Source: Dokdonella sp. | GTDB lineage: Bacteria; Pseudomonadota; Gammaproteobacteria; Xanthomonadales; Rhodanobacteraceae | Length of the DNA stretch: 64,000 nt | Assembly: GCA_016712865.1 (NCBI GenBank) | Contig: JADJQH010000003.1 | Span: 1-64,000, forward strand | Reading direction: 5' to 3' | In this document: piece by piece, positions 10,422-58,352 of the stretch | Position numbering within the stretch: the first letter of the stretch is position 1 | Layout of the letters: each line of letters starts with the position of its first letter | Translations under genes and position numbers: made by a program | Notes under the pieces: model-generated | The model's input: only the letters and a program-made list of their open reading frames with translations | Told to the model about the DNA's origin: nothing | Databases searched by the model: none

Positions 10422-10537
10422 TAGGGAAGGTCTGAGCAAGTATTGTCGCGAGCAAGCTCGCTCCCACAAAATCAAGCAATGGTGGGAGCGAGCTTGCTCG
10501 CGACGAATGAGTTCCGTACCTGTTCAGAGTTTCCTTA
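10422..10537 (+). mobile_element. MITE-like palindromic element, copy 1
   Basis: About 116 bp including the end TA dinucleotides. The left end TAGGGAAGGTCTGAGCAAGT and the right end (CCTGTTCAGAGTTTCCTTA) are imperfect inverted repeats. Inside is a perfect palindromic pair, TCGCGAGCAAGCTCGCTCCC and its complement, resembling the REP/BIME sequences of pseudomonads. The distal part carries ATGAGTTCCGTAC as in the other two copies. There is no coding capacity for a transposase, so it must be moved in trans. Copies 2 and 3 lie at 14634-14746 and 15534-15649. Confidence 0.75.
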
Positions 10538-14583: not shown

Positions 14584-14997
14584 TAGCCTGCATCATTCAT
14601 GATCGTCGCAGGAAAAAGCCCGAAGCCATGATTTAGGGAAGGTCTGAACAAGTCTTGTCGAGCAAGCTCGCTCCCACCATTGCATGATTTTGTGGGAGCG
14701 AGCTTGCTCGCGACGAATGAGTTCCGTACTTGTTCAGAGTTCCCTTGGCAATGCGCTCCAGCGCTCATCGGTTTCAACATGCAGTCCGCCTGCGTTTCCC
14801 TGCTGGCACGACCACCACGGACGGTGTGAGTGCAGGAAACGCATGGAGCAGTTTCCAGCCGACCCTCGCGGGTCTTTTGCCCCAAGCGCTGCGTTGCTTG
14901 TCGCCCCAATGGAACCACCATTGCGGCTCCTCGCGCCTTGCGATTGGGGCAAAATTCTCCGCGATCATCTGCGCCCACTCATGAATAATGCAGGCTA
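14584..14997. mobile_element. 414-bp non-autonomous element with 19-bp terminal inverted repeats, carrying a nested MITE
   Basis: TAGCCTGCATCATTCATGA at 14584-14602 is the inverted repeat of TCATGAATAATGCAGGCTA at 14979-14997 with one mismatch. The interior has no convincing gene. The palindromic MITE copy 2 lies inside it at 14634-14746, so one element has inserted into the other. The right end stops a few bases before the stop codon of the PAP2 gene. Confidence 0.55.
14634..14746 (+). mobile_element. MITE-like palindromic element, copy 2
   Basis: About 113 bp and the same family as 10422-10537. It differs by loss of one CG in the left inner arm (TTGTCGAGCAAG) and an inverted loop sequence (CCATTGCATGATTTTG). 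Ends TAGGGAAGGTCTGAACAAGT and ACTTGTTCAGAGTTCCCTT are present. It is nested in the 14584-14997 element. Confidence 0.7.
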
Positions 14998-15003
14998 GGC
15001 AGC

Positions 15004-15657
15004 TCAGGCAAACAGGCTCACGCCGGGTACCAGCCACATTGAGACACCGGCCAGGGTGGAACCGATCACGGTGGCGGCCAGCACATCGCTGGGGTAGTGC
15101 AGGCCGAGCACCACGCGCGAGACCGCTACGCTGGCAGTGAATGGCACCAGCAGCCATGCCAGCACCGGGTAATGCGCCATCGCCACCAGGCTGAAGCCAA
15201 CGGCATGCAGGGTGTGCCCGGACGGGAAACTGAATTCATCCAGCGGTGCAACCCAGGCGCGGATGCGCAGGTCGCTGGCAAACGGACGCGGACGCCGAGT
15301 CCAGCGTTTGAGCCCCTTGTACAGAAGCAGTGCAACCAGGCCGGTCAATGCCAGGTGCCCGGATGCCTCAAGCCCGCGCATTCCATCGCAGAGAATCAAC
15401 AGGCCCATCAAGGCGTACCAGAACACACCATCGCCAAGGCGACTGACCAGCGAGAAATAGCGCAACACGCCTTGTCGTGCGCAGAATCGATTGACGCGCA
15501 GGCACCAGCCGTTTTCGGCGAGGGTGATCTGCCTAGGGAAACTCTGAACAAGTACGGAACTCATTCGTCGCGAGCAAGCTCGCTCCCACAAATTCAAGCA
15601 ATGGTGGGAGCGAGCTTGCTCGCGACAAAACTTGTTCAGATCCTCCCTAGCAGCCAT
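15004..15657 (-). CDS. PAP2-superfamily membrane phosphatase with an in-frame 38-codon MITE insertion
   Basis: 217 residues as it stands. The PAP2 core is intact: KRWTRRPRPF, PSGHTLHAVGF and SRVVLGLHYPSDVLA are the three phosphatase motifs, between several transmembrane helices. Such proteins dephosphorylate lipid phosphates such as undecaprenyl or phosphatidylglycerol phosphate. The start at 15657 (MAAR) overlaps the end of the upstream glycosyltransferase gene by 11 bases. Residues 5-42 (EDLNKFC to VQSFPR) are encoded by MITE copy 3; removing 114 bp gives MAARQITLAENGW, a 179-residue protein. The insertion keeps the frame open, so a longer protein may still be made. A second ATG within the element at 15564 is an alternative start. 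Confidence 0.8.
   Translation of the reverse strand: MAAREDLNKFCREQARSHHCLNLWERACSRRMSSVLVQSFPRQITLAENGWCLRVNRFCARQGVLRYFSLVSRLGDGVFWYALMGLLILCDGMRGLEASGHLALTGLVALLLYKGLKRWTRRPRPFASDLRIRAWVAPLDEFSFPSGHTLHAVGFSLVAMAHYPVLAWLLVPFTASVAVSRVVLGLHYPSDVLAATVIGSTLAGVSMWLVPGVSLFA
15534..15649 (-). mobile_element. MITE-like palindromic element, copy 3, inserted in frame at the GT/PAP2 gene overlap
   Basis: 116 bp with a TA at both ends, consistent with a TA target duplication and a net gain of 114 bp (38 codons). On the minus strand it runs from TAGGGAGGATCTGAACAAGT to CAGAGTTTCCCTA with the internal CTCGCTCCCAC/GTGGGAGCGAG palindrome. It is oriented opposite to copies 1 and 2. Its first TAG keeps the stop codon of the upstream glycosyltransferase. 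Confidence 0.8.
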
Positions 15658-16795
15658 GGGCCGGGGCATCGACATGGGCACCTCGGGCCAGGGAATGCAG
15701 GATCAGGTCGAAATCGGCAATCACCTGTGCCGGATGCAGTCCACGCACGGCATGGCGGCAATTGCCGCGCATCGTCCGGCGCATCAGGACATGCGTGCCG
15801 AGTTCAACCACGGCATTGATGAAGCCTTGCTCGTCGCCCATGGCAACCAGCGCACCGTGCATGCCATTGCGCAGATGCTCGCGCGCTGCCGCGTAGTTGA
15901 AAGCCACGGTCGGCACGGCGCTGGCCAAGGCTTCCAGGGTCACGTTGCCGAAGGTTTCGCTCACGCTCGGGAAAACGAATACATCGCCACTGGCAAAATG
16001 ACGGGCGAGGTCAGCGGCGCGACGAATACCGCAGAAGATGAAGTCGGGGTTGTCCTGTTGCAGGCGTTCGCGCTCGGGGCCGTCGCCAACCCACACGAAG
16101 CGGGCGCCGCTGCATTGACGCTTCAGTTCACGAAACGCCCTGACCGCAAGCCCGAGGTTTTTCTCCGAAGCAATGCGCCCGACATGGATCAGCACGACAT
16201 CGTCCTTGCCTGCTCCCCAGGACGCGCGCAAGTCATCGTCTCGCCGCATCGGATCAAACATGCGGGTATCGACCGCGCGCGCCAGGCGCAGCACACTGTC
16301 GAACCTTTCATGTTCGAGAAGCGCTTGCAGCTCGCGCGTCGGCACCAGGGTGGCATTGCCCATGTTGTGGAAATGGCGCATCCAGCGCATGGCTGTCCCT
16401 TGCAGGAAGCCCAAGCCGTAGTCACGCATGTAGTGATCGAAGCGGGTGTGGAACCCGGTTGCCGCTGGAATGCCAAGTTGACGCGCGGCGCGCAATGCCG
16501 ACCAGCCCAAGGGGCCTTCCGTGGCCACATAGATGGCATCCGGCCGCCGTCTCCGCCAATGTTCCCGCAAGCGCCGGGTTGCCGGCAGCCCAAACCTCAA
16601 TCCCGAGTAGAACGGCAGGCTGGCACCACGCACCAGCATGCTGCGCGCAACCGTATCCGCGTCACCCTGCTGGCGTGGGCGAACCACTTCCAGTTCATGC
16701 CCGCGCAGTCGCAGGCCGTGTTCGAGGCCCTGGACGGTAAGGGCCACGCCGTTGACTTCCGGTGGATAGGTCTCGCTGACGATGGTGTAGCGCAT
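15647..16795 (-). CDS. Family 4 glycosyltransferase (MgtA/PimB-like)
   Basis: 382 residues from MRYTIVSETYPPEVNGVA, the usual beginning of GT4 enzymes of this group; upstream in-frame codons are not conserved in character. The N-domain has the glycine-rich acceptor side. The C-domain has VVLIHVGRIASEKNLGLAV, WVGDGPERERL and the E-x(7)-E type nucleotide-sugar motif in SVSETFGNVTLEALAS. Relatives transfer mannose or other hexoses to lipid acceptors. The gene overlaps the PAP2 phosphatase gene by 11 bases, so both were probably co-transcribed and translationally coupled before the MITE entered at its TAG stop codon. It is divergent from an amino acid permease. Confidence 0.85.
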   Translation of the reverse strand: MRYTIVSETYPPEVNGVALTVQGLEHGLRLRGHELEVVRPRQQGDADTVARSMLVRGASLPFYSGLRFGLPATRRLREHWRRRRPDAIYVATEGPLGWSALRAARQLGIPAATGFHTRFDHYMRDYGLGFLQGTAMRWMRHFHNMGNATLVPTRELQALLEHERFDSVLRLARAVDTRMFDPMRRDDDLRASWGAGKDDVVLIHVGRIASEKNLGLAVRAFRELKRQCSGARFVWVGDGPERERLQQDNPDFIFCGIRRAADLARHFASGDVFVFPSVSETFGNVTLEALASAVPTVAFNYAAAREHLRNGMHGALVAMGDEQGFINAVVELGTHVLMRRTMRGNCRHAVRGLHPAQVIADFDLILHSLARGAHVDAPAHGC

Positions 16796-16975
16796 GCGCG
16801 CCTCTGCCGGTATCGAAAGACTCGGCGCGCAGTCTCGGCTTGCTGCATGACGGCATGACGACGCGCACGTGGCGTATCCGTGACGCCCGCGCGCGCGGCA
16901 TGCACGCGGGCACATGCCGGGCGTCTGCGGTAGCATCCGTCGCTTGGGCCTCAGCCCGGCCAGGGGAGCACATGC

Positions 16976-18471: not shown

Positions 18472-19242
18472 ATGTTCAAGCCTGTCTGCAATGCGCGTGC
18501 CCTTGCCATCAGCCTTGCTCTTGGCACCACGCTTGCGCTACCGGCGCAGGGCGCTCAGCTGGCCTCGCACTGGAACCTTGACGAAACATTCGGCACCCAG
18601 GTTGTCGACAGCGGCCCCGCGGGTCACGATGGCACGCTCGCGGGCGGGGCAAGCTTCGTGCCGGGCCAGGGGATTCTCGGTGGCGCCCTGTCCCTGGTTT
18701 CCACCACGGGCTCGCTGGTCAACATGGGCAATGTGCTCAGCCTCGGCGAATTTCCAAGTGGAAGTTTTTCCATTGCCGCCTGGGTCCGCAGCAGCACCCC
18801 GAGTACCGAGACTCAGATGATTGCCTCGAAGACCGATTTCACGATCCAGTCCGGATTCGCTTTCGGCTTCAACCCGACCGGTGGTGGCGGATTCGACGGA
18901 TCGGCCGTGTTCTTCGTCATCAGCGCAACTCCTTCAGGGGTCATCTCGACGACGCCGGTCAACGACGGCCAATGGCATCTGGTGGTGGGCACGTACGCGC
19001 CGCCGCCGGGTGTTTCGCAGATATTCGTGGATTACGGGCCGGCAGAAAGCACGGTCGCAAGTCCGGCCTACACGAGCAACAGTGCAAATTTCCTGCTTGG
19101 CGGCGTCAATATCAACGCGCAGCCGGTTTCGTACCTGACCGGGCTGCTTGATGAGGTCAAGGTTTTCGACGGCGTACTGAGCCAGGCTGAAGTCGAGGCG
19201 CTCTACTCCGTCGAAGGGATATTCCACGACGGCTTCGATTGA
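18472..19242 (+). CDS. Secreted LamG/concanavalin-like protein with IFxxGF(E/D) tail
   Basis: 256 residues. The signal peptide ALAISLALGTTLALPAQGAQ precedes a LamG-type jelly-roll domain filling most of the protein (LASHWNLDETFGTQVVDSG, SIAAWVRSS, DGQWHLVVGTY, GLLDEVKVFDGVLSQAEVEA). Such domains bind glycans or proteins outside the cell. The last residues, GIFHDGFD, match a tail found on three other secreted proteins in this window. A GGGGGAG ribosome-binding site precedes the ATG. No enzymatic domain is visible. Confidence 0.75.
   Translation: MFKPVCNARALAISLALGTTLALPAQGAQLASHWNLDETFGTQVVDSGPAGHDGTLAGGASFVPGQGILGGALSLVSTTGSLVNMGNVLSLGEFPSGSFSIAAWVRSSTPSTETQMIASKTDFTIQSGFAFGFNPTGGGGFDGSAVFFVISATPSGVISTTPVNDGQWHLVVGTYAPPPGVSQIFVDYGPAESTVASPAYTSNSANFLLGGVNINAQPVSYLTGLLDEVKVFDGVLSQAEVEALYSVEGIFHDGFD

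Positions 19243-57999: not shown

Positions 58000-58352
<353 letters not shown>

Follow-up and report, generated by a model that had tools for sequence, protein, structure and literature searches.

A probable IS5-type MITE insertion at the overlapping border of a glycosyltransferase gene and a PAP2 phosphatase gene that keeps both reading frames

How can a transposable element enter the overlap of two genes and leave both of them readable? The question is raised by a glycosyltransferase gene and a PAP2-family phosphatase gene of Dokdonella sp. that overlap within the window, the 64,000-nt stretch of contig JADJQH010000003.1 (GCA_016712865.1) analysed here. At their border lies a palindromic element of 110 bp, flanked on both sides by direct duplications CTAG (Table 1). 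The original prediction had described a palindromic MITE, and its structure agrees with this: the inner palindrome arms (15564-15589 and 15604-15629) are 96% complementary, the outer arms (15533-15553 and 15630-15650) are 86% complementary, and the RNA of the element forms a single long hairpin at -80.5 kcal/mol (z -12.6 relative to 200 shuffled sequences). Moreover, its core pattern was found at least 109 times in the window's own genome (53 + 56, with at most 3 mismatches), against 0 for the reversed-pattern control. The TA reported at both ends is present, but it is the middle of a 4-bp CTAG target duplication of the IS5-type YTAR kind. REP-like cores, an inverted pair of which lies inside the element, gave 263 matches genome-wide (at most 2 mismatches; control 0). 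An Rfam search of positions 15400-15800 returned zero matches over the gathering score, and one sub-threshold riboswitch match fell outside the element. Elsewhere, the window carries a poly-G tract of about 136 G (98% pure; 58178-58313).

Table 1 Features of the glycosyltransferase/PAP2 border and further element copies in the window
Feature	Position	Strand	Comment
Glycosyltransferase gene, GT4 type	15647..16936	-	Glyco_trans_1_4, 1.2e-29; 16936 is the most upstream ORF start
PAP2-family phosphatase gene with in-frame insert	15004..15669	-	PAP2, 9.1e-20; putative start
110-bp MITE	15537..15646	-	With one duplication encodes EDLNKFCREQARSHHCLNLWERACSRRMSSVLVQSFPR in PAP2 reading direction
Target duplication CTAG, copy distal to glycosyltransferase	15533..15536		
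Target duplication CTAG	15647..15650		Minus-strand TAG (15649-15647) is the glycosyltransferase stop codon
Terminal inverted repeat	15537..15553	+	GGAAACTCTGAACAAGT
Terminal inverted repeat, opposite end	15630..15646	-	GGAGGATCTGAACAAGT
REP-like core	15567..15589	-	GTGGGAGCGAGCTTGCTCGCGAC
REP-like core, inverted mate	15604..15626	+	GTGGGAGCGAGCTTGCTCGCGAC
Second element copy in the window, 108 bp	14637..14744	-	Flanks TTAG/TTGG (L155)
Third element copy in the window, 110 bp	10425..10534	-	Matching flanks, minus-strand CTAA (L154)

The element and one 4-bp duplication together add 110 + 4 = 114 bp, that is, 38 codons. A scripted deletion of these 114 bp produced ...MAARQITLAENGWCLRVNR / VPMSMPRPMAARQITLAENGWCLRVNR, after which the PAP2 gene reads MAARQITL, as had been foreseen; the PAP2 start expected at a site without the element is MPRPMAARQITL. 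The C-terminus of the glycosyltransferase, ...DAPAHGC*, is identical with or without the element. The claimed 38-codon in-frame insertion that keeps both overlapping reading frames was supported. The stop of the glycosyltransferase gene is the TAG of the right-hand CTAG, and the PAP2 frame runs through the element. This TAG had been thought to be supplied to the upstream gene by the element; it is instead the gene's own stop, copied by the target duplication. The extra residues are indeed rich in Arg, Cys and His (6, 3 and 2 among 38). Both frames survive by arithmetic, not by special design.

The genes do overlap, but the overlap is probably about 23-29 nt instead of the 11 bases originally given, because the PAP2 start probably lies upstream of ATG 15657, at 15669 or 15675. 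The assignment of the start to ATG 15657 is probably wrong: no GAGGT-like run precedes this ATG, and the in-frame ATGs at 15669 and 15675 sit downstream of GAGGT. The PAP2 starts of two relatives (L035 and L079) leave 17 residues before and including a conserved Trp, fitting 15669 as the probable start. Since the closest relative (L033) starts a few residues earlier, 15669 is inferred rather than proven. Translation might alternatively begin at an ATG that the minus strand of the element carries in the PAP2 frame (MSSVLVQSFPRQITL...), which would make the element a mobile start codon, with about 11 residues in place of the native N-terminal ones; most of the 38-residue extension would then be lost. 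A start there would make the conserved Trp residue 20, close to its position as residue 17 in the relatives, and the same ATG would give another interrupted gene (L192, see below) a short leader ahead of a hydrophobic stretch. We consider this unlikely, as the element ATG has no Shine-Dalgarno-like run close upstream (judged by eye) and is buried in the -80.5 kcal/mol hairpin, and the native ATGs with their upstream GAGGT are intact.

Among the 115 PAP2 relatives with a placeable start, none holds any 8-residue piece of the 38-residue block. The orthologue comparison proposed with the original prediction thus came out in its favour, and so did the search for recurrence of the block, which repeats across the genome (the 109 core matches). 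The closest PAP2 relatives are Thermomonas and Lysobacteraceae records (core identity 84-77%). The glycosyltransferase and PAP2 genes adjoin, with ends abutting or overlapping, at many of the compared loci; both were present at 7 of 8 loci comprising those from same-genus genomes and one other, and the remaining locus (L271) gave a PAP2 match only. Over 15004-16936, the PAP2 gene of the window is nearer to the Thermomonas/Lysobacter records (at most 84%) than to same-genus genomes (about 54-66%). Horizontal transfer of the gene pair may have occurred. In G121, the nearest relative with the element, the assembly ends in the region of the PAP2 site.

PAP2 retains its catalytic motifs. Residues K121, R128-P129, P149-S150-G151-H152, S184-R185, H191 and D195, which we take to be the PAP2 catalytic motif, are invariant in a 55-sequence alignment including the window protein. 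A structure model built from the 55 aligned sequences had a mean pLDDT of 81.6. Values were 86-97 for most of the core and dropped to 59-75 over residues 121-150, and the residues of the insert scored about 51-72, in weak helices. In this model, the PAP2 fold is predicted to be undisturbed, and the insert forms a low-confidence N-terminal extension. A model from the single sequence (mean pLDDT 45.6) was discarded. It could be argued that the insert silences PAP2: the extremely stable hairpin, which starts about 19 nt inside the gene, would block translation or transcription, making the open frame irrelevant and setting the gene on course for loss. The invariant catalytic residues are intact and the PAP2 frame is still open after 4 changes from the consensus, and we regard silencing as improbable, even though the insertion may be too young for decay to appear. 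Most likely, the insert is a near-neutral extension of the N-terminus that the protein would tolerate, and the very stable hairpin in the mRNA may lower PAP2 output.

The repeat family was characterized from 102 core matches at 99 loci, comprising 95 bounded copies and 7 without borders. Exactly 110 bp was the length of 88 of the 95 bounded copies, and these 88 diverge from their own consensus by 2.6 positions on average. The flanking duplications are identical in 45 of the 95 copies (30 YTAR and 15 other tetranucleotides, 4 of the latter in one tandem array) and unequal in 50. In unequal pairs (L116-L214), YTAG at one end is often paired with YTGG or YCAG at the opposite end. At least two insertion sites are common to G121 (L275 = L120 and L281 = L170, flanks compared by eye); because the sites are shared, the family is older than the split from G121, and because the same mismatch occurs at the two sites, the mismatch in duplications is also old. 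An assembly error or a chance inverted repeat, for which the repeat nature of the sequence alone would speak, has a negligible probability, considering the 109 copies with distinct flanks, the z score of the hairpin and the two sites common to G121.

Matches were obtained in 18 of 233 family genomes, and with the best candidates scored (at most 3 per genome) a whole-length match occurred only in G000 and G121; the remaining matches among these 18 genomes covered inner cores or one end only. A spread of the family through the genus was rejected, the element being present in 2 of the 10 genomes of the genus. A plasmid collection gave one match (52%), on a Pseudomonas plasmid and confined to the inner palindromes. 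Two local arrangements were also observed: four element copies in tandem with a period of 218 bp, made up of the element and about 108 bp of flanking sequence, at L182 (G000:C8:283500-285500), and, at G000:C2:636051-638408, a cluster of REP-like cores in a single orientation outside full elements, with several spacings near multiples of 42 bp.

The ends of the element point to its class. Its terminal inverted repeats, GG-N4-TCTGAACAAGT, are of IS5 type, and the target duplications agree with the YTAR motif reported for IS5 (PMC10359306) in the 30 of 45 identical pairs mentioned above. Three DDE_Tnp_1 genes were found in the genome. One of them (L113) encodes an IS5-type transposase in a 1175-bp element with ends GCTGAATAAGT/GCTGAACAAGT (GGCAACGCTGAATAAGT and GGATATGCTGAACAAGT) and flanks TTCG/TTAG; these ends are similar, not identical, to those of the MITE, and L113 is a plausible candidate for the mobilising partner. 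The genome also has four Y1_Tnp genes (RAYT tyrosine transposase profile), but the target duplications favour the IS5 route over RAYT mobilisation. The element resembles IS5-family MITEs in its IS5-type terminal inverted repeats, its 4-bp YTAR duplication, its lack of transposase coding capacity and the presence, in the same genome, of an IS5-family transposase gene (L113) with similar ends. It differs from them in its interior, which is an inverted pair of REP-like palindromes and not a transposase remnant, and in that stop-codon sites are common for the family.

The frame properties of the consensus explain what such a target means for a gene. With one duplication included and TAR read as a codon, the codon is a stop, and the left copy terminates the gene at once on either strand. 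When the target is read xYT ARx, the unit is stop-free on both strands and adds 38 codons, and the third phase meets TGA after four codons. At the PAP2 site, the glycosyltransferase gene is in the first of these phases and the PAP2 gene in the second.

Across the family, 32 gene ends at 31 loci have their stop codon exactly at the duplicated TAR; at L149, two convergent genes each retain a stop. Genes were called with a 3-periodic Markov model trained on the window. The use of two codon-usage contexts for gene direction was dropped, as it did not distinguish sense from antisense frames in this GC-rich genome. Partial proteins were scanned for 17 of the 32 ends; 16 had a Pfam match, and in 10 of these the match extended into the final 3 profile positions no more than 14 residues from the stop. 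Examples are YidC, MTHFR, isocitrate/isopropylmalate dehydrogenase and PHB depolymerase. Protein tails resembling IF.DGFD or FADGFD were seen at L173, L190, L196, L207 and window 18472-19242.

Stops were found at 31 of 91 distinct occupied sites (the 95 copies minus 3 tandem copies minus one repeated flank); among noncoding YTAR sites without the element the count was 28 of 187, giving an odds ratio of 2.9 (p 5e-4). The unoccupied sites were taken from 464 kb (20 stretches plus the window) and treated by the same method as the copies. Enrichment persisted without three weak cases (p 0.004), and with a stricter gene caller the null fell to 15 of 167 unoccupied sites, giving a larger effect; the stop-codon excess is real, and its size is uncertain because it depends on the gene caller. 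The excess may reflect survival downstream of genes instead of target choice.

Insertions into coding sequence are few. A search for open-through frames with coding signal identified a second in-frame insertion in a GT4 glycosyltransferase (L204), where the insert lies in the linker between domains at 18-183 and 242-395. A regex search for the junction of this protein gave zero matches, and split BLAST was used instead, which gave 24 loci with relatives, 22 of them with both halves in one frame. At the insert point, 18 of these 22 have -3 to 7 extra residues, three have 14-15, and one (L241, another genus) has 27. In the last, the same inter-domain linker holds an in-frame palindromic repeat of another kind (L241:2018-2187), which looks like an independent insertion. 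A third in-frame insertion probably lies near a protein start at L192, where ATG CTT AAG of a 7TMR-DISM protein (7TMR-DISMED2, Pfam 5.1e-31) precedes the element and the insert lies 4 nt past the likely start codon. An empty-site test for genes running across the element (95 copies, 500-bp flanks) revealed one mid-gene case, L204, which is open through. At L132, L140 and L213, a coding-like frame enters the element from one side only.

These cases bear on the proposal that selection has given the family its open frame and its length of 114 bp as an ORF-compatible design, as has been suggested for intragenic palindromic elements. The length of 110 bp is kept in 88 of the 95 copies, one phase is open on both strands, and 2-3 in-frame coding insertions stand beside zero detected disruptions. 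Nevertheless, one founder length explains the uniformity, a multiple of three arises by chance in about 1 of 3 cases, and only those 2-3 of 95 copies are in coding sequence. Additionally, the copy at the PAP2 site departs from the 88-copy consensus at 4 positions (3 nonsynonymous changes, 1 synonymous), with no sign of constraint, and a 99-bp relative with the same ends (L292) points against such a design, which we judge very unlikely.

In other genera, elements with the same ends and different inner palindromes were found. Among 7 ends in 5 loci, two follow long ORFs that stop at the duplication TAG (L292, 619 codons; L293, 498 codons). The inner palindrome of L292 is likewise different, and the L292 frame ends with MDDIGDDDIPF, which presumably resembles the tip of single-strand binding protein.

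Taken together, the locus is very probably the site of a non-autonomous IS5-type MITE that inserted at the stop/start overlap, gave PAP2 38 additional codons as a tolerated extension and had the upstream stop restored by its target duplication. The target would have been the CTAG to which the stop codon of the glycosyltransferase and an early codon of PAP2 both contribute where the genes overlap, with mobilisation in trans by an IS5-family transposase. As can be read from the sequence, the 4-bp duplication rebuilds a full TAG at the glycosyltransferase end, and the 114 bp, stop-free in the PAP2 frame, keep that frame while adding 38 codons near its start. Gene-breaking insertions would be purged, with survivors at stop codons, between genes, and at places that tolerate them, such as termini and linkers.

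Several components of this picture have precedents. Rickettsia palindromic elements (RPE) are palindromes of 105-146 bp found in frame within genes (PMC2229807). The element resembles RPE, by description, in its in-frame palindromic insertion into conserved genes, here PAP2 and the GT4 gene of L204; it differs in host, in having 2-3 of 95 copies in coding sequence, and in a target duplication that restores the stop of an overlapping upstream gene. In-frame fusions of MITEs to ORFs are reviewed for several bacteria (ERIC, YPAL and Correia), some forming signal-peptide regions (PMC2229807). The fusion of MITE open frames to genes is shared with these, whereas the sequences and hosts are others, and the available passages of PMC2229807 describe no overlapping gene pair. 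REPs have been reported within ORFs in species including X. oryzae, X. campestris and S. maltophilia, are concentrated near gene 3' ends and, in the GTAG class, often supply a TAG stop to flanking ORFs (PMC3733652). The inner cores of our element look like REP palindromes in high copy and inverted pairs, as in REP/BIME. In the GTAG REPs, the stop comes from the end of the repeat; here, by contrast, it is the target's own stop, duplicated, and the ends are of IS5 type and not a GTAG foot. The earlier statement that no comparable case was known in this group does not hold in view of the reported REPs inside Xanthomonas and Stenotrophomonas ORFs (PMC3733652) and the reviewed in-frame MITE fusions (PMC2229807).

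Hence, in-frame palindromic insertions (RPE, ERIC, and REPs including those of Xanthomonas) and REPs supplying stop codons are already known. In the titles, abstracts and passages covered by our literature search, no description was found of a target duplication that restores a stop codon at overlapping genes. The novelty lies in an IS5-type MITE that leaves the upstream gene unharmed through its own target duplication, here where two genes overlap.

A more general and rather doubtful idea is that the element has a self-sparing architecture, in which the YTAR preference leads to TAG/TAA stops, the duplication rebuilds the stop, and the 114-bp unit has one coding phase that is free of stops in either orientation. 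If this were true, such a MITE could lodge at the ends of genes and where genes overlap in a compact GC-rich genome, adding 3' hairpins and small protein extensions, and the architecture may be common to MITEs with the same ends in other genera. The PAP2 locus illustrates simply how a transposon can get into an overlapping stop/start, among the most densely packed spots of a genome, with both frames intact. Any genome that has IS5-type elements allows a check of the rule that the target motif contains stops which the duplication brings back, and this rule would account for the survival sites of IS5-type repeats.
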